Assembly: GCF_017357425.1 (NCBI RefSeq)
Contig: NZ_CP014571.1
Coordinates: forward strand, 1,550,001 to 1,614,000
Length of the DNA: 64,000 bases
Source: Arthrobacter sp. D5-1
GTDB taxonomy: Bacteria; Actinomycetota; Actinomycetes; Actinomycetales; Micrococcaceae
Reading direction: 5' to 3'
Position numbers and translations under genes: made by a program
Notes under the pieces: generated by a model
What the model saw: the letters and a program-made list of their open reading frames with translations, nothing else
The model's database searches: none
Told to the model about the DNA's origin: nothing
Shown: one piece after another, positions 1,755 through 60,267 of the stretch
How the letters are laid out: every line of letters begins with the position of its first letter
Numbering within the stretch: position 1 is the stretch's first letter

Positions 1755-1764
1755 TGCTTGCCTC

Positions 1765-3582: not shown

Positions 3583-3659
3583 CCGCCCATGCTACCTTTC
3601 CATCCTTGTCACAGCGTTGAGGTGCGGTGTTGGAGGCACCGCGGCATTAGGCTTGGCAG

Positions 3660-4583: not shown

Positions 4584-4743
4584 TCCGTGCTGTGCACCTG
4601 CACAAATTGGCGCCTGCATGGCAGTGCGTGAAGGCGTAGACACTCCTTCTCGCGGGGCAGTACCGTGGCAGTAATTCACGCCACTTCCGGCAACGAACCC
4701 CCGTGGTGCAATTCTCCAAAGCACCCAAGACGAAGGAGTCGCC

Positions 4744-6225: not shown

Positions 6226-6289
6226 GCTGCTCTTTCCACCAAAGAGCCCCGTCCGCCGCTCTCGCAACAAGAACGGCTGTGACACGCAA

Positions 6290-6330
6290 GGGCCCGGCTC
6301 CTGGAACCACAAGTTCCAGGAGCCGGGCCC
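6290..6330. terminator. Strong bidirectional terminator hairpin
   Basis: Perfect 18-bp inverted repeat (6290-6307 and 6313-6330) with a 5-nt loop, followed by TTTGCTTT. It lies between the convergent gabD and transglutaminase genes and can serve both strands. Confidence 0.93.
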
Positions 6331-6342
6331 TTTGCTTTCAAG

Positions 6343-8844: not shown

Positions 8845-10268
8845 CGGGGAACCGCCGCTCCACGACGGACGTCCATGGCCGATCCTGCCGCGGCCACGAT
8901 TCCCCCTTCGTCAAAGGAGGACCAAGCGGCCGCCAGTTGGGTCCTGGAGGTCACCACAGCCACGCGCCAACCGGCCAGGCGCAGGATCTCCAATACGTCA
9001 TCATTGTTCCGGGCGGAGTCAGTGACCATCAGCGCGAAAGCATTGGCTCCGTAGGCTGCCGCGGGTGCCAGGGACCTGGCCTCAGCGGGAGTCAGCGTGC
9101 CGAGGAGCGCTAGAAGAGGGCCGCGAAGACGGTGGGCGGCGAGCTTATCCATGAGCCGGTCATCGAAGGCAGCATCGGCGGAATCAGCGGTGGCTGGGCC
9201 CGTTGGAGCGTCTGCCCTGTGGTGCTCCGCCCGGACATGCCTGGGACCGCTGAGTTCGATGGCGGCCAATCCTTCAGCGATGGCCTGCAAGCCTCCGATG
9301 CCCGAGAACTCTTCGGTATCCGGTTCCGGTGCCGAGCGCGAACGGATGAATGCCGGGCTCCCGAAAACATCCAGCACCCGCAACGAGTAATTCCACTCCG
9401 CCAGATGGGCCGCAACGGACATCGCTGCCGTCACCACCCATTCAAAACCGGGGCTGGTTACCAGGTCCGAGTCCTCGTCATGGGCTCCAAACATGGAACC
9501 TGTTCCTGCGGCAAAAGCCGTGAAGCGCTGGTCCAGGATGAGGGTGGCTTCCGGGGTAGTGACCGATTCCTCCTGGCGGACCATCAGTTGCCCGTGGCGT
9601 GCCGTAGCCGCCCAATGCACGCGGCGCATGGGATCGCCGTGCCGGTACTCACGGGTCATGATGTCGTCGTCGCTGGGGTTGGCCCTGATGCGCGTGGCGG
9701 TCACGCCATCGTTGCCGCGCGCGCCGGCAAGTCCGGTGACGGGAAGTTCGACGGCGGCCGGCGTCACGGTGAGGATGTCGCCGTCGTCGATCGCATGCCG
9801 CCGCAGCGACAAACCGAAGGGGTCACTGAACTCTGCCGTCACCGGGCCGATGCGGAACTGTCCGCGTTTGCCGGAGCGGAGATGGTATTCGTAACGGCTG
9901 GTGCCTCCGGATGCTGAGCGGGCCGGAAAACGGAACGCCGGCGGCTCGCCGAAGCGGGGAGGCAGCTGCTCCTCCATGATCACGTGCCCTGTGGAATACG
10001 AGGACCGTGCTACCGCCAAACGAACGGTGGTGGTGCTGGCAGTTTCCACAGTGGAGGGGTTGAACTCCCGGTACACCTGGAATTTGGGCTTCAGAACCCG
10101 CACCCCGGCGAGGGCCACCATTGGCAGGAGAAGCAACAAGACCGCGAGCGTCAGGAGATCCCGCCTGCCCATGACCCAGGCACACCCCAGTGAGACGGCA
10201 CCGGCCGCCAGCAATCCCCAGCCGCGGTTGGTAAATAAATGCTTGGGGAGCCGATCTACGAGCGCCAT
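8841..10268 (-). CDS. DUF58 (vWA-like) protein
   Basis: Protein of 475 aa with two hydrophobic segments near residues 14-32 and 38-55, then a soluble region with the DUF58 hallmark REYRHGDPMRRVHWAATAR at about 206-224. DUF58 proteins are thought to act as partners of MoxR AAA ATPases. The gene starts 9 bp after moxR with an AGGAGG ribosome site and overlaps tgpA by 4 nt, so the three are one operon. Acidic residues in the C-terminal half could form a MIDAS-like metal site, but I cannot confirm this by eye. Confidence 0.92.
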   Translation of the reverse strand: MALVDRLPKHLFTNRGWGLLAAGAVSLGCAWVMGRRDLLTLAVLLLLLPMVALAGVRVLKPKFQVYREFNPSTVETASTTTVRLAVARSSYSTGHVIMEEQLPPRFGEPPAFRFPARSASGGTSRYEYHLRSGKRGQFRIGPVTAEFSDPFGLSLRRHAIDDGDILTVTPAAVELPVTGLAGARGNDGVTATRIRANPSDDDIMTREYRHGDPMRRVHWAATARHGQLMVRQEESVTTPEATLILDQRFTAFAAGTGSMFGAHDEDSDLVTSPGFEWVVTAAMSVAAHLAEWNYSLRVLDVFGSPAFIRSRSAPEPDTEEFSGIGGLQAIAEGLAAIELSGPRHVRAEHHRADAPTGPATADSADAAFDDRLMDKLAAHRLRGPLLALLGTLTPAEARSLAPAAAYGANAFALMVTDSARNNDDVLEILRLAGWRVAVVTSRTQLAAAWSSFDEGGIVAAAGSAMDVRRGAAVPR

Positions 10269-43601: not shown

Positions 43602-44522
43602 CTAAGCCGCCATGGGGACCTGCTGGTCAGAGCTGCCCCGTGTCCCCAACAACATGCCGGATGCGCACAACATCGCAGAAGACTCAGCGGAGAGAAGCAG
43701 GCCAAGGCGGAGGCCGTCGCACGAAGCGGCGTCGCCGATCGCCCAGATGCCCGGGACGGAGGTGGCGAGGTCGCGCCCCACGGAAATGCCGCCGTCGGAC
43801 GCCACCGCCAAGCCGGCGCTCGCGGCCAGGTCGTTACGGGCCGTGCGTTCCTCGGCAATCACCACGAGGTCCCCCTTCATGCTGCTGCCGTCCTCGAACA
43901 GGATGCCAGTGGCCGGCAGGTTGGACTCCGGTGCGCCTGCGGCAGGGGACGCAACAGGAGTTGTGGAAGCAACGGGAATGGGATCGGCAATCACCGCGGC
44001 GGGGCGAAGGGTGGTGCGGACTGGCCGGACTCCACGGGCACGGAGCACGGCCTCTGCCTGGCCGGCGGCAGGCCCACTGCCCACCAGGATTCCGAGGGGA
44101 CGGCGGCCCACCATCCTCGTGACCTCCTTGACGGCCTCACCGATGGTCGCGGCGTCGTCGATGGTGGAGTAGCTCAGGCCAGCTTCGGCTCCGGCTACGG
44201 GCGGGAGGGAAGGGGCAGAGCCGGTGGCGATGACCAACTGGTCGTAGGAAAATTCCAGGCCGTCCACGGTGGTGACCATTTTGGCGTCGGAGTCGATGAA
44301 GCTGGCCGGCTGCCCGAAACGGACCGAAACCTGGGGGAGCTCGGCGAGTTCCAATAAAGCGTCAGGGCACTCATCGCGGTTGCTGAGGACGGTGATGGTT
44401 CCGTCGAAAGCGCGTTGCCGGGAGTCTGACCTTCCTGCAAGCCGCCGCACCAATGCCTGGGCCGCTGGGCCTGCGCCTGCGATGACGATGTGGAGGGAGG
44501 GTGCGGACGGGATGGCGGACAT
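43602..44522 (-). CDS. FAD-dependent pyridine-nucleotide oxidoreductase-like protein
   Basis: 306 aa with an N-terminal dinucleotide-binding fold (VIAGAGPAAQALVRRL), the ATG motif LVIATGSAPSLPP, a second nucleotide motif (GILVGSGPAAGQAEAVLR) and the FAD-proximal IWAIGDAASCDG. It resembles the N-terminal flavin domain of assimilatory nitrite reductase NirB and related rubredoxin-type reductases, but is short and has no Fe-S or siroheme domain. The partner is unknown. A perfect palindrome (44633-44646), matching that before the TetR gene, lies 110 bp upstream. Confidence 0.8.
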   Translation of the reverse strand: MSAIPSAPSLHIVIAGAGPAAQALVRRLAGRSDSRQRAFDGTITVLSNRDECPDALLELAELPQVSVRFGQPASFIDSDAKMVTTVDGLEFSYDQLVIATGSAPSLPPVAGAEAGLSYSTIDDAATIGEAVKEVTRMVGRRPLGILVGSGPAAGQAEAVLRARGVRPVRTTLRPAAVIADPIPVASTTPVASPAAGAPESNLPATGILFEDGSSMKGDLVVIAEERTARNDLAASAGLAVASDGGISVGRDLATSVPGIWAIGDAASCDGLRLGLLLSAESSAMLCASGMLLGTRGSSDQQVPMAA

Positions 44523-44678: not shown

Positions 44679-46034
44679 TCAGTATCGGCGCAGGAGCTCA
44701 CGGAAACCGTTCCCGGCGAAGCCTGCCACCGCGCCCGCACGGTCCACGAAACCGTGGGCGCCGACGGGTTCAACGGAAGCCAGAAAGCTGGCAGCGTCGG
44801 CCAGGCTCATGGTCAGATCGGCCACCAGTCCACCCACTTCCAGCCTGGCTCGCCGCGAATCCGCCCAGGCGTCCGGCCCCGGGTCATCGTGCAATGTGCG
44901 GGTCACCGCAAGACTCTGCCACCCGCCGTCGACCCTTATGCGGGCACGGTAGGTGACGTCGTCGCCGTGGGTCTCTACGCGCCCGCCCGCCAGGAAGACC
45001 CGCCCGAACCGGGAGTGTTCCAGATAGCCGCTGAGCTGCGGCGCTTCGTCCCCGGGATCGGTGGGAAGGACCACCGTGGCTTTGAACGTCACGGGCGATC
45101 CGTCCAAGTCGCCCCGGAGGGTGTCGTTGACGCGGACACCCGGCGCAGGCTCTGTCATCGCCGTGCAGTTGGCATCCTTGGCCAATCCGGTGTCAGTCCT
45201 CGAATCGAGGTAGGCGCGGGCGTCCCTGTAGCCCATGCCGATCAGCGTATCGGCATCGATCCTGCCCAGATAGAACTCTGGATCCAGAGGAAGGGGGTGC
45301 CGGGGACGGACTACGTGCAGCACAAATTCGCGTCCGGCAGCCTCGGCAGCCTCGAAATCAGCCAGGAGGGCGCCCATGGCACTCATCTCGATCATGTGCA
45401 CGTACTGTTCCAGCGGTCCGTCGCCCCAGTAAGGCGTATTTCCGATGCACCAGACCAACCACACTTCGTCGGCCCCACGCCGCAGTGCCTCGGCCACATT
45501 GGCGTCCCTGATCCAGACGGCATCGGTCCAGACTTTTCCGTCCCGCCGCAGAGGCGGGAGAAAGATCGGAAGTGACATGCCGGCAGCCATGAGCCCGGCA
45601 TCAATGTCCGTGGCGTCGATGGCGTGGCAGCGCTTTCCGGTGAACTCCACCACGTTGAAGGAACCCTCGACGGCGTCCGGTTCCGCTGCGTGGGCCCGGA
45701 TGGTGGCGTCGTTGATGCCCAAGGCGGGGAAGACCTTGCTGAGGATACCGTCGGCGTCGCCAACGGCGGGCAACGACCACGGACCCTTGAGGTAGTCGCC
45801 CACGGGCAGTGCTGAGCCGAAGTCCTTGACGTCGACGCCCGACCACCGGGCACACATCTCATCCGGCGAGACGCCGGAGAGAATCATGCCGGCCGTGAGG
45901 ATCCCGCCGGAGGTGCCGTCGACGTGCTGGAATTCCAAGCCTTCCTCGGTGAGCGCCTTTACCACTCCGGCTTGCCAAGCCACCCGCATGCCGCCGCCGG
46001 CGAGGACCAGTGAGCGTTTTGCCGGGTGCTTCAT
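44679..46034 (-). CDS. Patatin-like phospholipase
   Basis: Lipid acyl hydrolase of 451 aa with a Ser-Asp dyad. The N-terminal LVLAGGGMRVAWQAG carries the oxyanion glycines, the nucleophile elbow is HVDGTSGG (GTSGG), and a candidate Asp lies in VWTDAVWIRDANV. A C-terminal region of about 150 residues (from about 290) is beta-rich and of unknown function. ATG 46034 overlaps the stop of the previous gene by 4 nt. Last gene of the seven-gene coupled operon; no clear terminator follows. Confidence 0.88.
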   Translation of the reverse strand: MKHPAKRSLVLAGGGMRVAWQAGVVKALTEEGLEFQHVDGTSGGILTAGMILSGVSPDEMCARWSGVDVKDFGSALPVGDYLKGPWSLPAVGDADGILSKVFPALGINDATIRAHAAEPDAVEGSFNVVEFTGKRCHAIDATDIDAGLMAAGMSLPIFLPPLRRDGKVWTDAVWIRDANVAEALRRGADEVWLVWCIGNTPYWGDGPLEQYVHMIEMSAMGALLADFEAAEAAGREFVLHVVRPRHPLPLDPEFYLGRIDADTLIGMGYRDARAYLDSRTDTGLAKDANCTAMTEPAPGVRVNDTLRGDLDGSPVTFKATVVLPTDPGDEAPQLSGYLEHSRFGRVFLAGGRVETHGDDVTYRARIRVDGGWQSLAVTRTLHDDPGPDAWADSRRARLEVGGLVADLTMSLADAASFLASVEPVGAHGFVDRAGAVAGFAGNGFRELLRRY

Positions 46035-46507
46035 CCTGCCAACCCGGAGTTGGCAGGTGCGGCGCTGAGACGGCGCCAATACACGTAGAGGAGAATCCCG
46101 GTTGCGAGGTCAAAGAAGGCCACCATCAGGGCAATGGGCGCGAACACACCGTTGAGGACGCCGATGCCCACGGCCCCGAACGCGCCGGTTTTCTGGAGCC
46201 CGGACCACAACACCACCTCGGGGGAGGGAACAGCGTTGAGGAGGGTGTGGAGGAGCAGTCCGCCCACCACCACCATGAACATTCCCACGGTGCCGAAGAG
46301 TTGGCGGGTTTCGGGGGTGGAGTCTGCGCCGATCAGTTGCAGGACTGGCCCACCGAACGGGACCTGCACGGCGCCGGTCAGGACGGTGATGACGGCGATG
46401 ACCGCGAGGACGGCGCGGAGGGGATCGGCCACGGCCCAGGCTACGGTGCCCGGCGGGTGTGTTTTCCGGGGGTGGCTCCCGGAGTGTGCCGGCTGGTGCG
46501 CGGTCAT
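46031..46507 (-). CDS. Four-helix membrane protein, unknown
   Basis: 158 aa with about four hydrophobic segments (VLAVIAVITVLTGAVQVPF, FGTVGMFMVVVGGLLLHTLL, TGAFGAVGIGVLNGVFAPIA, LMVAFFDLATGILLYVYW). I recognise no family. Both ends overlap neighbours by 4 nt (ATGA at start and end), which fixes the coordinates. Probably a membrane partner for the lipid-active enzymes of the operon. Confidence 0.78.
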   Translation of the reverse strand: MTAHQPAHSGSHPRKTHPPGTVAWAVADPLRAVLAVIAVITVLTGAVQVPFGGPVLQLIGADSTPETRQLFGTVGMFMVVVGGLLLHTLLNAVPSPEVVLWSGLQKTGAFGAVGIGVLNGVFAPIALMVAFFDLATGILLYVYWRRLSAAPANSGLAG

Positions 46508-46986
46508 GCGTAGGACTCCAGCAGCCGGCCGCGGTCCACCAACAGCCACACCATGGCCGCCCAGGTCAGGGTTGAGACGTAGAAACGGATGTCGTTGAGC
46601 ATCATCCAGCGTTTGAGCAGCGACCTGAGCTCGGCGTCGTCCGCGAAGTCGCCGCCACGGATCCGGACGTTGATGGGGATGATGATCCCTTGGCCCACCC
46701 AGGTCAGGACAATGATTCCCAGCAGGCAAATGATGGCGGGGATGACTCGGACGGTTCCCCATTCGGACCAGACGAGAATGCCGCCGGAGATGAACATGAT
46801 GGGCACCACGATGGTGAAAAACTTGGTGGCCGCCCGGGTGGGGATGCCGAAGTGCATGTCCACGTTGTCCCGGGCCAACGATTCCCAGGTGGGGTAGAGG
46901 AAGAACTTGAGGACCCACATGGTGCCCACATACATGGTGGCCCCGAAGAGGAAGTAGAGGGCGTTGAGCAGGAGGAGCCAGTTCAC
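46504..46986 (-). CDS. Membrane protein, possibly DUF1772-like
   Basis: 160 aa, four hydrophobic segments, with polar motifs between them: YPTWESLARDNVDMHFGIP, IPINVRIRGGDF and the terminal WMMLNDIRFYVSTLTW. The pattern of a Pro-Asn in a loop and W..LN..R before the last helix recalls DUF1772 (anthrone-oxygenase-like) membrane proteins, but the match is weak. The GTG start at 46986 overlaps the decarboxylase-like stop (GTGA), and the stop overlaps the next ATG. Confidence 0.75.
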   Translation of the reverse strand: MNWLLLLNALYFLFGATMYVGTMWVLKFFLYPTWESLARDNVDMHFGIPTRAATKFFTIVVPIMFISGGILVWSEWGTVRVIPAIICLLGIIVLTWVGQGIIIPINVRIRGGDFADDAELRSLLKRWMMLNDIRFYVSTLTWAAMVWLLVDRGRLLESYA

Positions 46987-47966
46987 TGGACACCACCACG
47001 GGAGTCGGCACTTGGTGCGGCAGCGCCCGGGACCCGGCTCCGGTCCGGTGGCGCCAGCCATTCCTGCCCTTGGCCCAGGTCCACCACGCTGTCCATCATG
47101 TCCCCGCCGCGAAGGGCCACGGCCTCCAGTTGGGTGGGAGCCGTGAGGAACCACGCTTCGTAGTGGTCATCCAGGACCCCGTGGGCTTGGGGCAGCCAGG
47201 CGGTGAACACCGGTTTGCTCTCTACCTGCAGGTCCCTTAAAGGCTCGACGCCGGGCGCGTCACCGAGGATGAGCCGCGCCTTGGCCTGGGCGCCGAGGGC
47301 GATGTCCCCGGTGGCTTCGAAGTAGATGTCCGATTTCCAGAGCATGTTCCGGAACACACAGTAGTTGGACGCGGCAAGTTTGAGGGGAAGCTGGGTTGCC
47401 CCTGGTCCGGCCGGCCGTTCAATTTCGAAGTAGCAACCCAACTGGCCGTCCTTGTCGTATTGGGCTGACACGGTGGTGTCCGTAACCACGAAGTCCAGAT
47501 TGGCCTGGTGCTTGGGCATGCCCCAGATTCCTTTGCCCCCTTTCACGGAAACTTCGGTACTGACGGGCAGGTCCACTACGAACTGGCCGAGCTTGAACGT
47601 CTTTTGGAAAAGCAGGGGAAGGATGGGCGGGGCAGGCCTGCTGCCGTGGGTGATGGCGATGGCCAGGGAGTACTCGATGTACTTGCCGATGTCCGTGGAT
47701 TTGTAGTTGACCACTGTCACCACCAGGAGCCCTTTGCCGCCGAGGGTGAACGGCCGCATTTCCGAACCGGGGAGCGCAGCGGCGGCTGCCCGCTTGTTGA
47801 TGGGAAAGGCCGCCATCAACACCGGTGAGTCGTCGGAATTGACCGGCATGACGTATTTGATCCCGTCCGCGAACGCATGCTGTCCGCGAAGCCGTTCTTG
47901 CCTCCGCGGAACCGGGGACGGGAGGAGCTTGAGCAAGGGTGCGGCCAGTTCGGTGAGGTTTTTCAT
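46983..47966 (-). CDS. Acetoacetate decarboxylase-family protein
   Basis: 327 aa with the ADC fold core: YVMPVNSDDSPVLMAAFPIN early, SLAIAITHG, and VSVKGGKGIWGMPKHQANLD containing lysines where ADC has its Schiff-base lysine. Family members decarboxylate beta-keto acids or act as aldolases/dehydratases. The C-terminal 40 residues are low-complexity. ATG 47966 overlaps the alpha/beta hydrolase stop. The context (GMC oxidase, esterases) suggests processing of a keto-lipid or keto-acid; this is inference. Confidence 0.8.
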   Translation of the reverse strand: MKNLTELAAPLLKLLPSPVPRRQERLRGQHAFADGIKYVMPVNSDDSPVLMAAFPINKRAAAAALPGSEMRPFTLGGKGLLVVTVVNYKSTDIGKYIEYSLAIAITHGSRPAPPILPLLFQKTFKLGQFVVDLPVSTEVSVKGGKGIWGMPKHQANLDFVVTDTTVSAQYDKDGQLGCYFEIERPAGPGATQLPLKLAASNYCVFRNMLWKSDIYFEATGDIALGAQAKARLILGDAPGVEPLRDLQVESKPVFTAWLPQAHGVLDDHYEAWFLTAPTQLEAVALRGGDMMDSVVDLGQGQEWLAPPDRSRVPGAAAPSADSRGGVQ

Positions 47967-49018
47967 GGCTTCGACTCCGGGTTTCGGTTCAGCTCGTCGA
48001 CGATGATGGGGAAGGTGTCCTGCCAGGCGTGGTCGCCGAAAAAGACGTCCAGGTGGCCGTACCCGGGGATGAGGTGGAGTGAATCCTTCCCGGGGCGGTG
48101 CTTTTGGAAGAATTCGTAGGTGCGTTGCTGGCTTTCGGGCAGGAAACACAGGTTGTCCAGACCTGCGATGAATGCGAACCTCGCATCGGTCTGGGGGGCT
48201 TCGGCCACCAGGTTGTCCGGCAATTCCGGATGGTCGCCGGCGGCCACCATGTGCCCGGCCTTGATGCTGCGGCCCATTTCCTCGAAGAACGTCACGGGCA
48301 CCTCGGCGAACTCGCCGGTGAGCCATTGGTGGGTGGCGTCGTCGAGGTTCTCATGGGACCAGAGGGCGGGGCGGCCGCTGCCGTAGGTGAAGCTGACCAT
48401 CTTGCAGACAGTGTTGTCGCACTCATGGTGGGTGGCTTTGACCAGGCCCCGGATGGCCCGGGTGAAGTAGCCCTGGGACTTGTACCCCCACGCCGGCGAC
48501 AGGTACGGCGTGAAGGCTTTGACTACGGGCGTGAGGTAGTTGATTTTCAGCCGCGAGAACGCCGGCACTACGGGGTGCAGGGACACCGCGTTGGACACGA
48601 TGGTGTCCACCTGCGGCAGCAGCCCCGCCACGGCCGACATCGTGAACGACGTAGAGCCCTGGCAATGGATGACGGCTTTCATGGTCTCCGCGCCGGTAGC
48701 GTTCAGGACGTGCTCGACGGCAGCAGGATGGTCGTACACGGCGGCATCGGCAAGCGTCCAGGACAGGGGATCAAGGTCGATCGATGCCCGCCAGTTCAGC
48801 ATCCAAACATCCCACCCGTCTTCGAGGAGGACATCGACGATGGTGGTGCGGACCGGCGGCCTGAACAGCTCGGCCCGCACTCCGGAACCGTGAACCAGGA
48901 TCACCGGCCCCTTGACCGCTTCAAGGGGTGAGGTGACGTGGACCAGGCTCAAGGGCGTGTTGTCCCGGGCACGGAGAGGAATGACCTCGGTCCTGTGCTC
49001 GGCACGGGTGATGATCAT
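47963..49018 (-). CDS. Alpha/beta-fold hydrolase (lipase/PHA-synthase-like)
   Basis: 351 aa. The strand-turn motif PVILVHGSGVRAELF forms the oxyanion region. The probable nucleophile lies in VIHCQGSTSF (Gln-Gly-Ser in place of a strict GxSxG), and a C-terminal His is in IPGYGHLDVFFG. Overall it resembles the hydrolases encoded next to GMC cholesterol-oxidase-like genes in actinobacteria. ATG 49018 overlaps the metallophosphoesterase stop by 4 nt. The substrate is unknown. Confidence 0.82.
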   Translation of the reverse strand: MIITRAEHRTEVIPLRARDNTPLSLVHVTSPLEAVKGPVILVHGSGVRAELFRPPVRTTIVDVLLEDGWDVWMLNWRASIDLDPLSWTLADAAVYDHPAAVEHVLNATGAETMKAVIHCQGSTSFTMSAVAGLLPQVDTIVSNAVSLHPVVPAFSRLKINYLTPVVKAFTPYLSPAWGYKSQGYFTRAIRGLVKATHHECDNTVCKMVSFTYGSGRPALWSHENLDDATHQWLTGEFAEVPVTFFEEMGRSIKAGHMVAAGDHPELPDNLVAEAPQTDARFAFIAGLDNLCFLPESQQRTYEFFQKHRPGKDSLHLIPGYGHLDVFFGDHAWQDTFPIIVDELNRNPESKP

Positions 49019-51048
49019 GGGGTGTTTCCCTTCCGTGCGATGGTGATGGGTTCTTCAAGCAGCCGCACGGCAGGCAGGCCGGTCACCGGAACCAGCCGCG
49101 CGCCGTCGTCGTTCGTTGCCAGTTGCCAGTCGCGGCAGACGGTGTCCACCATCAACGGGTAGACAGTGAGGTTGCCGTCGGGTGAGAGGTGGATGCGGAG
49201 GAAGCCTTTGTGGTCCTCGATCGCCTGGCCTGACATCTTCCACGAGGCCACCTCGCCACTGGGTGTCGCCAGGATGTACAGGGCGAAGGCCTCGCTGCCA
49301 AGCGCCCACCCGCCCAGATGTACCAGGCCCAGCACCAGGAGCAGGATCACGACGTCCGGCCAGATCTCCGTCCAAGAAACAAGGATCACGACGGCGGTAC
49401 TCACCGCGAGCGCGGACAGCTGGTACAGGGCGCCGCGGGCGAAAACGACGATGCCCGCCTGGGCCACGCCCAGCGAACGCGCGGACAACGAGGCAATCGC
49501 CAGGAGGAGCGGCCCTGCAAGGATCAGGACACTGACAAGTACCGGGGTGTCTCCGCGGCTCAGGCTGCGCAGGCTGTCCACGAATCCTTCCCCGCGAAAG
49601 GCGCTGAAGACCGTCCACAGCGTCAGGGCGGCCACCACGTGCATGATGCCCAGCGATAGTCCGAAGCCGGGGTTGCGGATGGGGAGCCAGAACTGCGAGA
49701 AGGGGTTGGCCAGTTGCGGGCCGAGCAGGCGGGAGTTCCCTTGGCCGGGGAAGGTGGTGGTCGTGCGGGTGAAGGCGCGGCCTGGGCCCGACTGTTGTGG
49801 GCCCGACCGTTGTGTGTCCCGCACACTGGACGATTCACCGGGAGTAGCCGGCGCGGCAGGCAGGGTGAGATGTTCCGGCAGTCCGTGGGTATCCGAGAGG
49901 TAAGCGCCGCCCAGCCCGCAGGTGATCATCTGGGTCCTGCCCGGATCCGTGGTCTGGTGCTGGTTGGGGGAGTGATGGTGGGAAGGGGAGTCCTCGTAGC
50001 GGGAGTAGTGGTGGAGGTCTCCGGTGAGCCAGAGCCTGACGCTGGCACCTGTGGCGTCGAAGAGGCCCGTTTCAGGGTTGAAGCGGCGGCGCAGATAGTC
50101 CTGCTCGAAGAAATTCACCTGCCGGAATTCACCCCACCCGGGTTGAGTGGCGTCAACCCAGAACGGAGCAGCGACGCAGAGGATGATCGCATCGCCGGGC
50201 TGCAGTTGCAGAGTGACGTTCCGGTAGAAATAGTCCAGTTGTGGCTCGTCGATGTACTGCCCCAGTTGGCTGTCCAAGCCCAGCAACCACCAGCCGGGGG
50301 TGCCGTTCCGGCCCGGTCCGGGAGGGATTCCGGTCAGCCGGAGGGCAAAGTAGCTCCGGGTTTGGATGGTCCGCCAGTTTCCGATGCTCCGCTGCCTGGT
50401 GAACACCCGGATGAACGAGGTGAGGCCGTCGTACCAGTCGTGGTTGCCAGGAAGCGCCAGCATGACCGGAGGAGCGTTGTGGGGCCCGTTGTGCGCGGCG
50501 CCGGCGCTTCCTGGGCCGCTCACCGGGCCACTCGACACAGGTGGGAACGCCGTCCGGTACGGGCCCGCCATCCGGTTCTCGTACGCCGCAGGCGAAGCCA
50601 CCGGGTAGACCTCGTCCCCGCCAAGGACCAGCACCCTTCCACGGGGAAGTTCATGCCCGTCCACCGTCAGGGTGTCCTGGGCCAGCAAGGATGCCACCGT
50701 GTAGGTGGCATCGAAGCCATCGCCGAGGTCGGCCGTGAAATCGAGCCACATCTCCGTCGTTGCCGGAGCCGCGGCGGGCTCATCCTCGAGATCGGCCGGT
50801 GAGGGAAGCCCGCGGCTGCTGACAACGGGCTGCGCCGGTTGGCCCGGGACGGGAAGTTTGTCCAAACGCAAGGGGTCCGCTGGAAAGCTTCCCTCAAGCT
50901 CGCGCTTATCGCCAAAATCGGCAAAGACTGTGGCCGCCGCGACCTTCAACGCGGTTCTGGCCAAGGACAGGGGCGAGAGCCAACGAACCGCCGTCTGGGG
51001 TGTGAAGCCCAGTGCGGCGTGGTGTTTCGCGAGCTCCCGGCTTTTCAT
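49015..51048 (-). CDS. Membrane-anchored metallophosphoesterase
   Basis: 677 aa. The calcineurin-like phosphoesterase domain reads in order: FTADLGDGFDATY, VLVLGGDEVYPVAS, LALPGNHDWYDG, and WLTGDLHHYSRYED, so most metal ligands are present (the first motif has D-LGD in place of DxH). About five C-terminal membrane segments (residues 450-620) end in a soluble tail. It may remove phosphate from a membrane lipid or a polyprenyl carrier; this is inference. Overlaps both neighbours by 4 nt. Confidence 0.85.
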   Translation of the reverse strand: MKSRELAKHHAALGFTPQTAVRWLSPLSLARTALKVAAATVFADFGDKRELEGSFPADPLRLDKLPVPGQPAQPVVSSRGLPSPADLEDEPAAAPATTEMWLDFTADLGDGFDATYTVASLLAQDTLTVDGHELPRGRVLVLGGDEVYPVASPAAYENRMAGPYRTAFPPVSSGPVSGPGSAGAAHNGPHNAPPVMLALPGNHDWYDGLTSFIRVFTRQRSIGNWRTIQTRSYFALRLTGIPPGPGRNGTPGWWLLGLDSQLGQYIDEPQLDYFYRNVTLQLQPGDAIILCVAAPFWVDATQPGWGEFRQVNFFEQDYLRRRFNPETGLFDATGASVRLWLTGDLHHYSRYEDSPSHHHSPNQHQTTDPGRTQMITCGLGGAYLSDTHGLPEHLTLPAAPATPGESSSVRDTQRSGPQQSGPGRAFTRTTTTFPGQGNSRLLGPQLANPFSQFWLPIRNPGFGLSLGIMHVVAALTLWTVFSAFRGEGFVDSLRSLSRGDTPVLVSVLILAGPLLLAIASLSARSLGVAQAGIVVFARGALYQLSALAVSTAVVILVSWTEIWPDVVILLLVLGLVHLGGWALGSEAFALYILATPSGEVASWKMSGQAIEDHKGFLRIHLSPDGNLTVYPLMVDTVCRDWQLATNDDGARLVPVTGLPAVRLLEEPITIARKGNTP

Positions 51049-53786
51049 TGTTTTGACGTGAACGGGAACGGTACGCGTCTGAGACCCTGGCCGTAGACCT
51101 GCCAGAGTTCGCCGGCGAACAGTTTGCCGAAGGTCATCAAGCCTGCGGCCGGGGCCGGTCCTTCGGCCCGGAACGTGGTCAGTTGCCTGGCGAAGTCGAG
51201 AGGCCGGATGAAGAGGATCCCGGCGCCAACTACGCCTGCCTGGGCAGCGCCGCTTGCAACGGGCCGACCGGCGTCCGGCGGTGCAACGTCCGGCGTCCCT
51301 GGATCGGGTGGCACAGCATCCGGCGGCACATGGCCGCGGAGGATGGTGGCGTACAGGGTGGTGGTGTCCGCCCAGAGGTCGAAACCTGCCTCGTTATGGA
51401 TCAGTTTGTGCCCGGTGAACGTGAACGGCGTGCCACCTGGGTCCCGAAGCCACAAGCGGTAGAGCATGCGCCTGGCTGGTGCGCCGTCGTCGGACGCATC
51501 CGGAATGAAGAGATTGAACCAGCCCCGCTCTACCGGCATCCGGCCACCAAAGTAGTCCGCCAGCACGTAGCCCTCGGCCTTGGCAGGGTGGTTCGGATCG
51601 GTCGCGAACGCCTCCATGTCCTCGGCGGTAATGGTCAGTTCGAACATGATCTTCCGGCTGCGGTCCCGGCCCAGGCTCCGCCCCTTTTCCGGATCGGTGG
51701 TGCCGGGACTGAACCAACCGTGCATCTGCTCGGTGAACCGCACGGAGGTGGTCTCTGGGGCGTCGGGAGCGCCAGGCCCGCCGAGTCCGCGGCTGCGCGC
51801 CTGAGGTACCTCAGGCGCTGCGCTCGCGGGCAGTTCCGCTGGTGCCGCCTTGCCTTTGGTAGCGTCCGGCGCCAACGCGCGCGGAGCGGATGCACCGACG
51901 TCGACGACGGCGCCTGCTGCCTCCCGTTCAACGGCCACCTTTTCGCGGGCCCCGCCGGAGCCTTCAGTGTCTTCCGGACGGATGCCCCGGTGTTGCGCCT
52001 TGTCTGCGTTCTCGATGATGTGGGCGCAGGTACGCTCTGCGAATGCGGCGATGGTCAGGGACGGGTTGGCGCCCACCGGACCGGGCATTGCGGCCCCGTC
52101 AACGACGAATAGTCCCGGGTATCCGAACACCTCCCCATACGAATCGCAGACGGCTTCCCCCGGATGCCGGCCGGACGGGGCGCCTCCAATGGGGTGAACC
52201 GTAATGACACGCTTGGCCCACCACAGGGGGTTGTCAATGAAGTCCCCGTCCAAGTCCTTGGAAATCGCCTCCATGGTCTCGCGGACGCGGCCGAAATACT
52301 CCTTGGACGTTGCCATGGTCCAGGCGATGGCCAGCCTCCCGTCGCGAAGGGTCATGACGCCGTCGGGAATGTCCCTTCCCATTCCCAGCAGAGGCACCGA
52401 ACTGGACGACAATCGGCCGTCGCCCAGTGCTGCGGCGAGGTCGGCGGAGACGTTGGAGCGGCCGGCGTCGAACAACCTGTCCTTGAGCAGTTGCCCCGCC
52501 AGTTTCACCGTCCGTTTCATGGTGGTGCGCAGTTGTGCTGTTTCCATGAGCCAGTTCATGAAGGCCGGATACCCGGCATCCTCCACGTAGTAGCCGCGAC
52601 CATCGCCGTCGTCGTCGTTCGAATCCGGGACCCTGATGGCTGTGGTGATCACCGGCCCGCGGCTTCCGGTCAATGTCCGGACACCCGGGCGTGAGCCATT
52701 GGCCGGGGGAGTCTTGGCGCCCATGATGAACGTCAAAAGGTCGCCGTTGCCGCTGAAGCGGGTGCCCAGGGCGTCGCTGAGCGCCGGAAGGGAGCCACGG
52801 TTGCGGAGCAGGAGGAAGTTGGTGCCGAACGTGCCGGCCCCCAGGATGAGCCGGCGGCAATGGATGATGCGTTCTGTGAGGAGTTCGCCGTGTCGATCCG
52901 GATGGTGCACCACATAGCGGACTTCATAGCCCCCGCCCTGCGTTCCAGCGTCCAACGGCCGAATACCGCGGACATCGTGGAACGTCCTGACATCGGCACC
53001 CCTGAAGGACGCCGCTGAAATGTAGTTGTGGTCCAGCGTATTCTTGGCGCCGGCGTTGCACCCGATGTCGCATTCACCGCTCAGCGTGCAGGTGGTCCGC
53101 ACCGTGGTGGGACCATGGATGCTCCCGTAGCCGGGAAGGGGCAAGGCGTGATTTGTCCGGGGCTCCGTGCCAGGCGCCGTTGAGAACGTGACGGCAATGG
53201 GAGGCCGGGTGATGGACAGCCCCAGGTTCGCGGCGGACTTCTCCATGGCAAGGGTCTTCGCGGTGTCCTTGTAGGGATACGGCACAGGCTGCAGCATGGC
53301 TTCGGCGGCATCGTAATAGGGATCAAGGTCAGCCCGGGTGAAGGGCCAGTTCTCGTAACCACCGCCGGGGATCGGGGACTCGTTGACGAACCACTTTTCG
53401 TCCTTTCGCAGGAGGACGTTGGCATAGATGAGTGAGCCGCCGCCCAACCCGCTGGACACCAGTCCCTCCGTGCCGCGGAACGTCCAGGCATCAAAGAGTC
53501 CATACAAGCCGCGGTCCGGATCCCAGAAGTTCCGGCCCATCTCCGACGGCGAGCGCGCGAAGCTGCCCGGCGGGTATGGTTTGCCGCGTTCCATGAGCAC
53601 AACGGACTGTCCGGCTTCGGCCAGTCGAAGCGCCGCAACGGAACCTCCAAAGCCGGAGCCCACCACCACTGCGTCGACTTTTTCGATGCCGATGCCGATG
53701 CCGATGCCGCTGCCGCGGTGGCGTGGCGGATCAGACGCGGGCTCAAACCCCGCATCCCCACTGTTCCCGGTCCCCAGACGACCCAT
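51045..53786 (-). CDS. GMC-family oxidoreductase, cholesterol-oxidase-like, with extra C-terminal domain
   Basis: 913-aa flavoenzyme. The FAD motif VVVGSGFGGSVAALRLAEAG begins near residue 39; SSGLGGGSLIYANV, HPIGGAPSGRHPGEAV and DGAAMPGPVGANPSLT mark a ChoD-type GMC oxidase. From about residue 600 a proline/alanine linker leads to a roughly 250-residue beta-rich domain (WFSPGTTDPEKGRSLGRDRS, LADYFGGRMPVERGWFNLF) not found in classic cholesterol oxidases. The ATG has AGAGGA upstream. The N-terminus contains a GI repeat encoded by four GATGCC hexamers. First gene of the coupled operon. Sterol specificity is unproven. Confidence 0.88.
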   Translation of the reverse strand: MGRLGTGNSGDAGFEPASDPPRHRGSGIGIGIGIEKVDAVVVGSGFGGSVAALRLAEAGQSVVLMERGKPYPPGSFARSPSEMGRNFWDPDRGLYGLFDAWTFRGTEGLVSSGLGGGSLIYANVLLRKDEKWFVNESPIPGGGYENWPFTRADLDPYYDAAEAMLQPVPYPYKDTAKTLAMEKSAANLGLSITRPPIAVTFSTAPGTEPRTNHALPLPGYGSIHGPTTVRTTCTLSGECDIGCNAGAKNTLDHNYISAASFRGADVRTFHDVRGIRPLDAGTQGGGYEVRYVVHHPDRHGELLTERIIHCRRLILGAGTFGTNFLLLRNRGSLPALSDALGTRFSGNGDLLTFIMGAKTPPANGSRPGVRTLTGSRGPVITTAIRVPDSNDDDGDGRGYYVEDAGYPAFMNWLMETAQLRTTMKRTVKLAGQLLKDRLFDAGRSNVSADLAAALGDGRLSSSSVPLLGMGRDIPDGVMTLRDGRLAIAWTMATSKEYFGRVRETMEAISKDLDGDFIDNPLWWAKRVITVHPIGGAPSGRHPGEAVCDSYGEVFGYPGLFVVDGAAMPGPVGANPSLTIAAFAERTCAHIIENADKAQHRGIRPEDTEGSGGAREKVAVEREAAGAVVDVGASAPRALAPDATKGKAAPAELPASAAPEVPQARSRGLGGPGAPDAPETTSVRFTEQMHGWFSPGTTDPEKGRSLGRDRSRKIMFELTITAEDMEAFATDPNHPAKAEGYVLADYFGGRMPVERGWFNLFIPDASDDGAPARRMLYRLWLRDPGGTPFTFTGHKLIHNEAGFDLWADTTTLYATILRGHVPPDAVPPDPGTPDVAPPDAGRPVASGAAQAGVVGAGILFIRPLDFARQLTTFRAEGPAPAAGLMTFGKLFAGELWQVYGQGLRRVPFPFTSKQ
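53685..53708. repeat. Hexanucleotide tandem repeat (GATGCC)4
   Basis: Four exact GATGCC copies (GGCATC on the coding strand) encode Gly-Ile repeats just before the FAD-binding motif of the GMC oxidoreductase. Copy-number change would keep the frame. Confidence 0.9.
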
Positions 53787-56741: not shown

Positions 56742-57158
56742 TTAGGTTGTCGCGAGATCGCTGTAGAGGGTTTGGACGCGGGTTTTGATGTCGTCGCGGA
56801 CCAGGCGCATGCGTTCCATGCCTCCGATGCCACGTTCTGAGGGTTCGTCGGTTTCCCAGATTTCGAAGCGTTTCCCGGTCGGTGGGTCGAGTTTGGCTTC
56901 GGTTCCCAGAACGATGACGGCGTCCACGGTGTCGAGGACTTCGTCGGTGACCGGTTTGGGATACTCGCCGGTGACGTCGATGCCCAGTTCGGCCAGGGAT
57001 TCCACGGACTGGGCGTTCAACGCCGCGCCGGGTTTTGTTCCGGCTGAGTAGACGGTGACGTTGTCCCCAGCCAGTTCCCGCATGAGAGCTGCGGCGAGCT
57101 GGGATTTGCCGCCGTTCTTGCTGCAGACGAACAGGACGGCGGGATGTTCCGAGGTCAT
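56742..57158 (-). CDS. arsC: Mycothiol-type arsenate reductase (arsenate-mycothiol transferase)
   Basis: 138-aa LMW-phosphatase-fold protein. The P-loop is VCSKNGGKSQ: Cys12 followed after five residues by Lys18 instead of the usual Arg. This GNGGKSQ-like loop, together with SAGTKPG and GGMERMRLVRDDI, matches Corynebacterium glutamicum ArsC1/ArsC2. Those enzymes attach mycothiol to arsenate for reduction by mycoredoxin. The ATG overlaps the preceding arsC stop (TAATG). Last gene of the five-gene ars operon. Confidence 0.88.
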   Translation of the reverse strand: MTSEHPAVLFVCSKNGGKSQLAAALMRELAGDNVTVYSAGTKPGAALNAQSVESLAELGIDVTGEYPKPVTDEVLDTVDAVIVLGTEAKLDPPTGKRFEIWETDEPSERGIGGMERMRLVRDDIKTRVQTLYSDLATT

Positions 57159-57814
57159 TAGAGTGCAGTCTCTTTCGTCAGGGAGGCGACCAGGTTCTTC
57201 ACACGGCCGTGGATTTCATCACGGATGGTCCGGACGGTGTCGAGGGGCTGGTCAGCGGGGTCGGTGAGTTCCCAGTCTTCGTAGCGTTTGCCGGGGTAGA
57301 TCGGGCAGGAGTCGCCGCAGCCCATGGTGATGACCACGTCGGAGGCGCGGACGACGTCGTCGGTGAGCGGTTTGGGGTATTCCTTGCCCAGATCCAAGCC
57401 CATCTCGTTCATGACTGTCACGACGTTGGCGTCGAGTTCTGATGCGGGCAGGGACCCGGCGGAGCGGACGCGGATCTTGCCTTTGGCTTCGGCTGTGAGC
57501 AGGGCCGCGGCCATTTGGGAGCGGCCGGCGTTCTGTACGCAAACGAACAACACCTCCGGGATCTCCGAGGCGAGGGAGCTTTTTGACTTGGCCAGGGCGT
57601 GGAGCCTGTCGTTGGCGAAGTGCTCGGTGGTCGCGGGCAGGTAGGCGCTGACCTTCGCGGTGCGGGCCAGTGCTGTGTAGGACTCGAAGACGTAGCGTTC
57701 GACGGTTTCTGCGGCGAAGATCCCTGCGTAACGTCCGGCGAGCCGGTCACTGATGCGGTGGAGTACTTCGGTGTTGTCCTGCAGGCCGAGCGTGGTTTCC
57801 TGGTGGTCGGTCAT
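57158..57814 (-). CDS. arsC: Arsenate reductase with N-terminal three-helix domain
   Basis: 218 aa. Residues 1-80 form a helical domain (VLHRISDRLAGRYAGIFA) of the three-helix dimerization type found before some actinobacterial LMW-phosphatase-like proteins. Residues 86-218 are an ArsC domain with Cys92 and Arg98 (VCVQNAGRSQ) and the redox cysteines Cys166 and Cys170 ([18 protein letters not shown]). Thioredoxin-type reduction is therefore likely, unlike the next gene. ATG 57814 has GGAG upstream; the gap to arsO is 35 bp. Confidence 0.9.
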   Translation of the reverse strand: MTDHQETTLGLQDNTEVLHRISDRLAGRYAGIFAAETVERYVFESYTALARTAKVSAYLPATTEHFANDRLHALAKSKSSLASEIPEVLFVCVQNAGRSQMAAALLTAEAKGKIRVRSAGSLPASELDANVVTVMNEMGLDLGKEYPKPLTDDVVRASDVVITMGCGDSCPIYPGKRYEDWELTDPADQPLDTVRTIRDEIHGRVKNLVASLTKETAL

Positions 57815-57849
57815 GACAGTGCTCCAATGGTTGTTTTGGTGACTGGCTT

Positions 57850-59235
57850 TCAGCTGGTGGTGCCGGATCGGCCGTGTGCGAGCCCGGTCGGGAAGCCGAC
57901 AAATGCCGGTTCCGGTGTGGAGCAGCAGCCTGACTCGGGCTCCTGCGACCCGGTGGTGGCAGGGGCGGGAACATCGCAGCTGGTACCGGCGTCCGCGGAG
58001 CATACCCCCGTTTCGGGCAGTTCAAGGAGGACGGTGTCCGCCGATTCCTGGTCACCGGCGAGGGCTGCGGCGACGGAACGGACTTGCTCGTAGCCGGTAG
58101 CGAGGAGGAAGGTCGGTGCCCGGCCGTAGGACTTCATCCCGACGATGTAGAAGTCTTTTTCAGGGTGGGTCAGGACCTTCGCGCCGTGCGCCGGGACCGT
58201 GCCGCAGGAGTGGAATTCAGGGTCGATCAGCGGGCCGAGCCCGGTGGGAGCTTCAACGGCGGGGTCCAGGTCCAGGCGCAGTTCCCGCAGGATCTCCAAG
58301 TCCGGGCGGAAGCCGGTGCAAGGGACGATGACGTCGGCGTCGATGGTGCGTCCATCGACGGCTTCGACGCTCACATGCGAGTCGAGGTTTTTCAGGGCAG
58401 CGATGCCGAACCCGGTGTGCAGTTCGATGGTGCCGGCCTCGACCAGACGGCGGAGGCGGGAGCCGAGCTGGCCGCGTGCAGGGAGCCCGTCGGCGTCACC
58501 GCCGCCGTAGACCTTCTCGGCGGAGTTGCCGCGGACGGCCCACAGGATGCGGGTATCGGGTTCGTCCTTGGCGAGGTCTGCGAGGTTGATCAGGGTGTTC
58601 GCTGCCGAGTGGCCCGCCCCGACAACGAGGGCGCGGCGGCCGGCGAAAGCGGCGCGGTCGCGGCCAACAACGTCGGGCAGCGGCGAGGAGATCCGGTCAG
58701 CTGCCAGGCCTTCGCCGATGGCGGGCAGGCCGGAGGTGCCAAGCGGGTTGCGGGTGGACCAGGTGCCGGAGGCGTCGATGACGGCAGCGACGGTGTGGTC
58801 CCGTGTTTCTCCGCCGCCGTGCTCAACCCGGACAACGAAGGGGGTGGTGTCGCGGTCCCGGACGTGGGTTTTGTCCATGCCCTGCCGGGTCACGGCGATG
58901 ACGCGGGAGCCGGTCTGGAGCCGGGAAGCGATCTGGGGTGTATCCGCCAGTGGGGTGAGGTAGTTGTCGATGAGTTCGCCGCCGTAGGGCAGTGCGGTGG
59001 GACGGGGTGATTCCCAGCCGGTGGGTTCGAGCAGGCGGACGGCGGCGTCGTCGAGGTTGAAGCGCCAGGGTGAGAACAAACGGATTTGCCGCCACTGTTC
59101 GATGGCGGCGCCGGCGGAGGGGCCTGCTTCGAAGATGACCGGTTCGAGTCCGCGTTCGAGCAGGTGGGCCGCGGTGGCGAGTCCTACCGGGCCTGCGCCG
59201 ATCACTGCGATGGGAAAGTTCGTCACTGAGTCCAT
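57850..59235 (-). CDS. arsO: ArsO-like flavin-dependent monooxygenase with Cys-rich tail
   Basis: 461 aa. FAD motif IAVIGAGPVGLATAAHLLE (about 8-26), NADPH motif ALVVGAGHSAANT and the distal ATGYEQVRS identify an FMO-like enzyme of the type called ArsO in Streptomyces ars clusters, where it accompanies arsT. The reaction is unproven; oxidation of an organoarsenical or arsenite has been considered. Unusually, the last 50 residues carry four cysteines (412, 420, 437, 438) in a Pro/Ser/Gly-rich tail. ATG 59235 with AGAGGA upstream is preferred to an earlier ATG at 59253. Confidence 0.85.
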   Translation of the reverse strand: MDSVTNFPIAVIGAGPVGLATAAHLLERGLEPVIFEAGPSAGAAIEQWRQIRLFSPWRFNLDDAAVRLLEPTGWESPRPTALPYGGELIDNYLTPLADTPQIASRLQTGSRVIAVTRQGMDKTHVRDRDTTPFVVRVEHGGGETRDHTVAAVIDASGTWSTRNPLGTSGLPAIGEGLAADRISSPLPDVVGRDRAAFAGRRALVVGAGHSAANTLINLADLAKDEPDTRILWAVRGNSAEKVYGGGDADGLPARGQLGSRLRRLVEAGTIELHTGFGIAALKNLDSHVSVEAVDGRTIDADVIVPCTGFRPDLEILRELRLDLDPAVEAPTGLGPLIDPEFHSCGTVPAHGAKVLTHPEKDFYIVGMKSYGRAPTFLLATGYEQVRSVAAALAGDQESADTVLLELPETGVCSADAGTSCDVPAPATTGSQEPESGCCSTPEPAFVGFPTGLAHGRSGTTS

Positions 59236-59277
59236 GCTGTCCTCTTGTTTCATCCGTTGGCGTGGCGTTTCGAGTGG

Positions 59278-60267
59278 TTAGGCGTGGGTTGGTTCTTCGA
59301 CCAGGGCGGTGGCGATGCTGTGGGCGTCATCCAGGGCGGCAAGGAACCGTTCGGCATCCAGCGCGGCCGCGCAGCCGGTTCCGGCTGCGGTGATGGCTTG
59401 ACGGTAGCGGTGGTCCACGGCGTCCCCGCAGGCGAAAACGCCGGAGAGGTTGGTAACCGTGGTGGGTGAGTCGACCTTGATGTAGCCCTCGTCGTCCAAG
59501 TCGACTTGTCCGGCAACCAGCTCGGTGCGGGGCAGGTGGCCGATGGCCACGAAGATCCCGGTGGCGTCCTGTTCACGGGTTTCTCCGGTGCGGGTGTCCG
59601 TGAGGGTCACGCCGGTGACTTTGCTGTCGCCGTGGATGGTGGTGATGGCCGAGTTCCAGGCGAACTTGATCTTGGGGTTGTCCTTGGCGCGCTGGGCCAT
59701 GATCCGGGAGGCGCGGAGTTCGTCCTTGCGCACTACGACCGTGACGGTCCTGGCGAAGCGGGTCAGGAAGGTCGCTTCCTCCATGGCGGAGTCGCCGCCA
59801 CCAACCACGATGATGTCCTGTTCGCGGAAGAAGAACCCGTCGCAGGTGGCGCACCAGGACACTCCGTGGCCGCTGAGTTTCTTCTCCTCCGGAAGGCCCA
59901 GTTCCTTATACGCGGAACCGGTGGCAAGGATGACGGCCGGGGCCTCGTGGGTCTCGCCGCCTCCAGTGACCACACGCTTGAGGTGACCCTTCAGATCAAC
60001 TTCAGTGACGTCGTCGAACACTATCCGGGCGCCGAACTTTTCCGCCTGTTCCTGGAGCCCATCCATGAGCTCAGGGCCTTGGATGCCGCCGGGGAAGCCG
60101 GGGAAATTCTCCACTTCGGTGGTGTTCATCAGCGCACCGCCGGCGGTGACCGACCCGGCCAGGACCAGCGGGTTCAGGCCTGCGCGGGCGGCGTAGATCG
60201 CCGCGGTGTAGCCGGCTGGGCCGGAGCCGATGATGATCAGTTGCTCGGTCTGGACGTCGGTGCTCAC
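59278..60267 (-). CDS. arsT: Thioredoxin reductase (ArsT-like)
   Basis: 329-aa low-molecular-weight NADPH-thioredoxin reductase with [20 protein letters not shown], the redox-active Cys139-Ala-Thr-Cys142 and [15 protein letters not shown]. In this operon it most likely regenerates the thioredoxin that reduces the ArsC enzymes, as proposed for arsT in Streptomyces. No thioredoxin gene accompanies it. GTG start with AGGAGA upstream; 31 bp after the first arsC. Confidence 0.93.

Follow-up and report, generated by a model that had tools for sequence, protein, structure and literature searches.

What is the function of seven genes that are joined end to end and encode an oxidoreductase, a phosphoesterase, putative acyl enzymes and small membrane proteins? 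The question is raised by positions 44679-53786 of a 64,000-nucleotide stretch of Arthrobacter sp. D5-1 (contig NZ_CP014571.1, positions 1,550,001 to 1,614,000; hereafter the window). The gene order there, all on the minus strand, is GMC (an alcohol-oxidizing flavin adenine dinucleotide, FAD, enzyme), MPE (metallophosphoesterase-like), ABH (alpha/beta hydrolase), ADC (acetoacetate-decarboxylase family), mem1, mem2 and patatin. The six consecutive 4-nt stop/start overlaps noticed in a first-pass annotation of this DNA are all present in the sequence, each with its start in frame: ATGA at 51045, 49015, 47963, 46504 and 46031, and GTGA at 46983. All seven genes are under purifying selection (ratio of nonsynonymous to synonymous substitution, dN/dS, 0.03-0.26 in three pairwise comparisons), and the patatin, ADC-family, alpha/beta hydrolase and GMC proteins exceed curated Pfam cut-offs. 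We conclude that the seven genes very probably form one functional unit, and that a joint role in lipid metabolism is likely.

Conservation within the genus provides the first line of evidence. The operon gene order is identical in the regions fetched from 18 other genomes (one contig, L124, ends inside mem1), and the conservation of all seven in order, to which the first-pass annotation had tied its proposal of a single unit, therefore extends to the relatives. A 4-nt overlap is possible at the MPE-ABH, ABH-ADC and ADC-mem1 junctions in 18 of 18 regions each, at mem2-patatin in 17 of 17, at mem1-mem2 in 13 of 17 and at GMC-MPE in 10 of 18, where each count records a start codon available in the relative, not proof of its use. 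Such retention suggests more than chance. In a genus sample of 121 genomes, the window's own included, MPE is present in 19, and the strong matches to patatin and to GMC fall in the same 19; two further patatin matches have E ~1e-5, and partial GMC matches of 36-37% identity are found in three more genomes. ADC is present in the 19 and in three others (ABH, mem1 and mem2 lay outside this search). Gene distances also correlate with one another, at 0.87-0.98 over 23 loci and 0.84-0.95 over 18 genus loci, leaving out L124 and L035 as incomplete or split. In addition, a FAD/NAD(P)H oxidoreductase gene lies 3' of patatin in 16 of the 18 regions (L124 is cut, and none was found in L138) and is a possible further operon member. 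Taken together, these data support one co-inherited unit in the genus; as a set, it also recurs across phyla.

Outside the genus, the gene set is nested, not all-or-none. We surveyed 80 named MPE loci, in which some absences are uncertain because of short contigs. All seven genes are found in 13 loci, some of them from genus members, and intermediate sets in 20: ten with MPE, GMC, ABH and a beta-barrel domain described below, four with MPE, GMC and the barrel, two with patatin, two with ABH and ADC, one lacking mem1 alone, and one MPE-ABH pair on a 3.3 kb contig. Full sets occur in Streptomyces, Microbacterium, a Solirubrobacteraceae metagenome-assembled genome (MAG; L093), a distant actinobacterium (L149) and Aquiflexum of the Bacteroidota (L084), and in a Rhodocyclales MAG the set is split, mem1 lying on a separate contig. 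The order seen in the window is shared by genus members, Streptomyces torulosus, Microbacterium and L149, while L093 reads MPE-GMC-ABH-ADC-mem1-mem2-patatin and L084 reads ABH-ADC-mem1-mem2-patatin-MPE-GMC. The run from ABH to patatin thus keeps its order across Actinomycetota and Bacteroidota, and GMC and MPE relocate. The run is not strictly unbroken, because in L084, L093 and L149 mem2 is separated from patatin by an eighth gene, mem3. The mem3 protein of L084 passes the DUF4345 cut-off (43.5 versus 26.5 bits), and a search with a mem3 profile, run on the window and on further loci, retrieved no other copy. A crude gene caller was used for part of the loci, and shadow open reading frames (ORFs) are present at some of them.

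Several observations weigh against a single unit. MPE stands alone in 47 of the 80 named loci, and 24 of 25 MPE-only genomes searched whole are without any barrel domain, so MPE has an independent existence. Conversely, L157 and L160 (a 4 kb contig) carry GMC-[barrel-ABH]-ADC without MPE, and an MPE search gave no match in either genome. Two plasmids also depart from the set: one from Cupriavidus carries MPE and GMC but no barrel within 19.5 kb, and one from Pseudonocardia carries GMC, ABH and a barrel encoded apart, with MPE missing from its 19.6 kb. The window set, moreover, is without the mem3 gene of the three distant sets. ADC occurs without the other six genes in three of the 121 genus genomes (L140, L141 and L142). 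There it is followed by a FAD oxidoreductase and deoC, the same as downstream of the window operon, and the other six genes gave no match within 14.5 kb around ADC, the stretch to which the search for ABH, mem1 and mem2 was confined; we infer that these three genomes have lost the remaining genes. Finally, the distance correlations partly reflect species phylogeny.

These data could also be explained by a loose gathering of unrelated lipid enzymes under shared regulation, with the overlaps arising from genome compaction. Such a gathering would accommodate MPE on its own and ADC without the rest; it is at odds with the order of the ABH-to-patatin run, kept in two phyla with one gene added in three sets, with the domain fusions and the barrel common to GMC and patatin, and with the strong matches to MPE, patatin and GMC in the same 19 genomes. 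We consider it very unlikely. The unity proposed in the first-pass annotation is in part supported by the recurrence of the set across phyla, and qualified by the independent occurrence of MPE and ADC and of GMC-barrel-ABH fusions that accompany MPE with no ADC, mem1, mem2 or patatin nearby.

The surroundings of the partial sets are varied. In L140, L141 and L142, ADC is flanked, on the side away from the FAD oxidoreductase, by a gene that by eye resembles a LacI-type regulator. On the Cupriavidus plasmid (L145:4183-10533), two ORFs resembling by eye a molybdenum-type oxidoreductase and a 2Fe-2S subunit precede MPE and GMC. Micromonosporaceae (L039, L048, L064 and others) have an MPE that is 34-38% identical and stands alone, with no barrel in those genomes searched. 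Some neighbour clusters of MPE-only loci recur in 8-15 Micromonosporaceae-rich sets, and ten neighbour proteins from six loci revealed no further partner in common.

Fusions of the barrel domain are the strongest reason to think that GMC, patatin and ABH act on the same molecule. The C-terminal domains of GMC and patatin are homologous (hhalign 98.2%, E 5.7e-14); this link is drawn from a separate hhalign profile comparison because the iterated patatin profile had absorbed GMC barrel sequences. Since a fold search with the whole GMC listed only GMC enzymes, the barrel was modelled alone, and it is predicted to be a beta-barrel with flanking helices (predicted local distance difference test, pLDDT, 86.6). 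The domain is found somewhere in the locus in 32 of 32 named loci having GMC, and in other bacteria it also stands alone or is fused to ABH. Pfam gave no convincing family for any of 26 barrel members, several of them from fusions or stand-alone barrels. Neither Foldseek nor VIA-align matched the barrel clearly to any solved fold, a point against the role that we propose for it below.

The fusions that link these parts are of the types GMC-barrel-ABH, barrel-ABH and GMC-ABH. The first of these belongs to a large protein family, with 6446 matches at E<=1e-50 among 7992 scored candidates. Among the best 120 of the 6446 matches (928-1167 aa), a 4-Cys motif is present in 119, and the Cys box of ABH is recognised in 98, with 21 off-pattern and one different. 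In the loci inspected, proteins of ~1135 aa annotated as 'cholesterol oxidase' or 'alpha/beta fold hydrolase' contain GMC, barrel and ABH in one chain, and no experimental work on them was found in the literature searched. On an Azospirillum oryzae plasmid, MPE adjoins a single GMC-barrel-ABH protein. Unlike the window, the fused-protein loci L082, L091, L102 and L144 have no ADC, mem1, mem2 or patatin nearby. In L082 ([Mycobacterium] manitobense, 934-9871), a second GMC and then a 1102-aa cyclase/AAA ATPase protein separate the GMC-barrel-ABH fusion from MPE.

We then asked what kind of enzyme GMC is. It matches Pfam GMC_oxred_C at 53.5 bits (cut-off 24.6) and carries the FAD motif and the His/Asn pair of the superfamily, with H531 and N574 invariant in 18 sequences. 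Cholesterol oxidase is the best match in the profile search, in which 6a2u also ranked, and it leads the Foldseek ranking, followed by fructose dehydrogenase and FAD-glucose dehydrogenase. The cholesterol oxidases of Streptomyces and Brevibacterium (PDB 1mxt, 1coy) have the same fold and His/Asn pair, and the GMC sequence is nearer to them than to the FAD-glucose dehydrogenase BcGDH or fructose dehydrogenase, both of which rank just behind as structural matches. What GMC has beyond cholesterol oxidase is the barrel domain and a C-x5-C-x3-C motif, and no secretion signal is seen by eye. The three cysteines (C233, C239 and C243) are invariant in 18 of 18 aligned sequences, and each of 16 GMC members checked, 13 of them outside that alignment, contains the motif a single time. 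BcGDH binds a 3Fe-4S cluster through Cys212, Cys218 and Cys222, and its catalytic pair is likely His476/Asn519 (PMC6719666). On these published positions, cysteine spacing (6 and 4) and His/Asn spacing (43) are equal in both proteins. Because C-x5-C-x3-C is the 3Fe-4S ligand spacing of FAD-glucose dehydrogenase, GMC is probably a dehydrogenase rather than the oxidase it was first called. As a candidate member of the NCBIfam cholesterol oxidases (NF058674), it was rejected at 201.9 bits against a curated cut-off of 850.

The iron-sulphur (Fe-S) reading of GMC has points against it as well. Among the alignments listed by searches with the region around the cysteines were cholesterol oxidase, ferredoxin and hydrogenase but not BcGDH, so the reading rests on the cysteine spacing together with the rank of 6a2u and the Foldseek ranking. 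In the window GMC, Ser replaces the second cysteine of the 4-Cys form, and the model is poor over residues 236-247 (pLDDT <50). Known Fe-S GMC dehydrogenases have a multiheme cytochrome c subunit, whereas the window operon encodes none, nor any CxxCH heme protein as acceptor for the GMC electrons; the motif is absent from all seven operon proteins, from the two downstream neighbours and from the one upstream. Pfam and NCBIfam scans recognised no hitchhiker subunit among the other six genes, unlike in BcGDH and fructose dehydrogenase. Since, in addition, none of the seven proteins has a twin-arginine-like start or a signal peptide recognisable by eye, the soluble parts of the operon proteins are probably cytoplasmic.

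The hydrolase ABH also departs from its relatives. Its profile matches gastric lipase over nearly the whole length (E 3.6e-17) and also lysosomal acid lipase. However, acid lipases have a Ser-Asp-His triad, while ABH has Cys-Asn-His: C119 and N289 lie at the gastric-lipase Ser and Asp positions and are both invariant in 18 sequences. Because of the Cys nucleophile and the Asn in the acid position, the ester cleavage first ascribed to ABH is doubtful on sequence grounds.

PHA (polyhydroxyalkanoate) synthases use a Cys nucleophile, which brings up the possibility that the module serves biosynthesis or remodelling, producing a ketone, polyketide or terpenoid lipid of the membrane instead of degrading one, with ABH as its acyltransferase. 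The Cys nucleophile itself, a weak match of the ABH profile to PHA synthases over 104 positions (best E 2.9e-8), the anthrone-oxygenase-like mem1 and the patchy distribution in the genus would all suit such a module. Against it, neither the seven genes nor the adjacent ones examined include a ketosynthase, acyl carrier protein or CoA ligase, and ABH was rejected as a PHA synthase, scoring far below the cut-offs (TIGR01836, 18.1 versus 365.3 bits; TIGR01838, 14.9 versus 622.65 bits). Overall, we regard biosynthesis as improbable.

A sterol or sterol-ester catabolic operon is unlikely too. Here ABH and patatin would cleave esters, GMC would be a cholesterol oxidase, and the rest would modify the side chain or A ring. 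The solved structures closest to GMC are indeed cholesterol oxidases, gastric lipase and lysosomal acid (cholesteryl ester) lipase are among the profile matches of ABH, and mem1 resembles anthrone oxygenases, which act on polycycles. Nevertheless, GMC falls far short of the cholesterol-oxidase cut-off and has Fe-S-type cysteines, and ABH is without the lipase Ser and Asp. Moreover, KstD-like proteins, the sole proxy for steroid degradation examined, are absent at E<1e-60 from 7 of the 19 genomes with the cluster; they are found in 12 of these 19 and in 40 of the 102 without it, a weak association (p=0.08), and none of the 121 genomes exceeds the curated KstD cut-off. Of the lipid and sterol theme put forward at first, a membrane-linked lipid role fits the data, while a sterol substrate, with KstD not clearly tracking the cluster, is not supported.

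Among the remaining proteins, MPE, whose closest named relatives are in Paenarthrobacter and Arthrobacter, does not itself match Metallophos (PF00149), but all 11 aligned relatives do at E<=1 (best 4.1e-5), and the candidate metal-ligand motifs GNHDW and GDxHHY are kept in 120 and 115, respectively, of 120 listed homologues. Hydropathy gives five partly overlapping segments in its C-terminal part, two in mem1 and three in mem2, and a PDB sequence search with MPE found no match. ADC matches PF06314 (55.2 versus 29.8 bits) and shares the Lys and Glu of that family; Lys152, which we take to be the catalytic Lys of acetoacetate decarboxylase, and Glu98 are invariant in 11 sequences, and ADC has no sequence relative in the PDB. 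For mem1, the match to anthrone oxygenase (PF08592) is below the cut-off (24.5 versus 27.3 bits), and all six aligned members match weakly (best E 2.8e-6). Patatin matches PF01734 at 92.7 bits (cut-off 27.7), and its S42/D171 dyad is invariant in 11 sequences.

GMC enzymes make carbonyls and ADC-type lysines attack them; patatins release acyl groups and Cys-type hydrolases transfer them. Of the systems known to us from the comparisons above, the operon most resembles an Fe-S GMC dehydrogenase joined to lipid acyl enzymes. The reading that we prefer, and to which we give an even chance, is that this coupled, co-inherited module acts at the inner membrane face on a single hydrophobic substrate with a hydroxyl group, a lipid or sterol-like molecule; that it oxidizes a lipid alcohol is slightly better than an even proposition. 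The barrel would hold the same lipid for, or hand it to, GMC and patatin, and also ABH, with which it shares a chain in other bacteria. Patatin would strip an acyl group, ABH would transfer or cleave an acyl or thioester bond through its Cys nucleophile, and GMC would convert the freed secondary alcohol to a ketone, its electrons passing by way of a 3Fe-4S cluster, perhaps 4Fe-4S in the ancestor, to a carrier and not mainly to O2. The ADC lysine may then condense with the ketone or a beta-keto product into a Schiff base, for decarboxylation or aldol-type chemistry, MPE would take off a phosphate head group, and mem1 and mem2 may anchor the complex or connect it to the respiratory chain. In all, the module would most likely break down or remodel a beta-hydroxy lipid. 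We infer the substrate, direction and electron acceptor as well as the step order, and this particular order is improbable. The complete pathway and fixed stoichiometry read from the overlaps at first are not supported in that form.

More tentatively, and with the odds against it, the operon, with seven genes here and eight in some distant bacteria, could be an enlarged version of a lipid-oxidation system that is widespread but undescribed, the compact form being a membrane phosphoesterase with a GMC-barrel-ABH fusion. If so, thousands of fused 'cholesterol oxidase' proteins would be Fe-S dehydrogenases that pass lipid-alcohol electrons to respiration. A new barrel domain that holds the lipid would couple the dehydrogenase to an acyl-transfer enzyme of the Cys type, and ADC, the small membrane proteins and patatin would add a second, carbon-carbon step. 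The findings also give specific grounds for questioning the annotation 'cholesterol oxidase' across this large family. The locus also links parts that had no assignment, namely a barrel without a Pfam family, a Cys-type lipase relative and small membrane proteins, and the modular series from two genes to seven or eight makes the function testable. No description of the gene set was found in the literature, which is weak evidence of absence as most subscription papers lay outside the search.

Table 1. Genes and domains of the operon, its candidate further member and the eighth gene of distant sets (window positions unless a locus is named).
Feature	Position	Strand	Remarks
GMC, probable FAD alcohol dehydrogenase, cholesterol-oxidase branch	51045..53786	-	C233/C239/C243, His531/Asn574, C-terminal beta-barrel
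Beta-barrel domain of GMC, ~residues 679-910	51057..51752	-	common to patatin; no convincing Pfam family
MPE, metallophosphoesterase-like enzyme	49015..51048	-	~4-5 C-terminal membrane segments
ABH, acid-lipase-like alpha/beta hydrolase	47963..49018	-	Cys119-Asn289-His322 replacing Ser-Asp-His
ADC, acetoacetate-decarboxylase-family protein	46983..47966	-	invariant Lys152 and Glu98
mem1, small membrane protein, anthrone-oxygenase-like (below Pfam cut-off)	46504..46986	-	GTG start
mem2, small membrane protein without assigned family	46031..46507	-	weak DUF4345 match, 2/7 members
Patatin-like acyl hydrolase	44679..46034	-	Ser42/Asp171; divergent beta-barrel copy at C-terminus
FAD/NAD(P)H oxidoreductase, candidate further member	43602..44522	-	3' neighbour of patatin
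mem3, small membrane protein, ~139 aa	L084:8178-8594; L093:7084-7875; L149:3131-4123

Scans of the operon for promoters and terminators gave signals no better than shuffled sequence. An anti-phage defence system was also considered and rejected, as PADLOC models matched none of the seven proteins at E<=0.01. Elsewhere in the window, at 57158-60267 on the minus strand, genes resembling an arsenate reductase, an ArsO flavin monooxygenase and a thioredoxin reductase stand in a row, which suggests an arsenic-resistance cluster.

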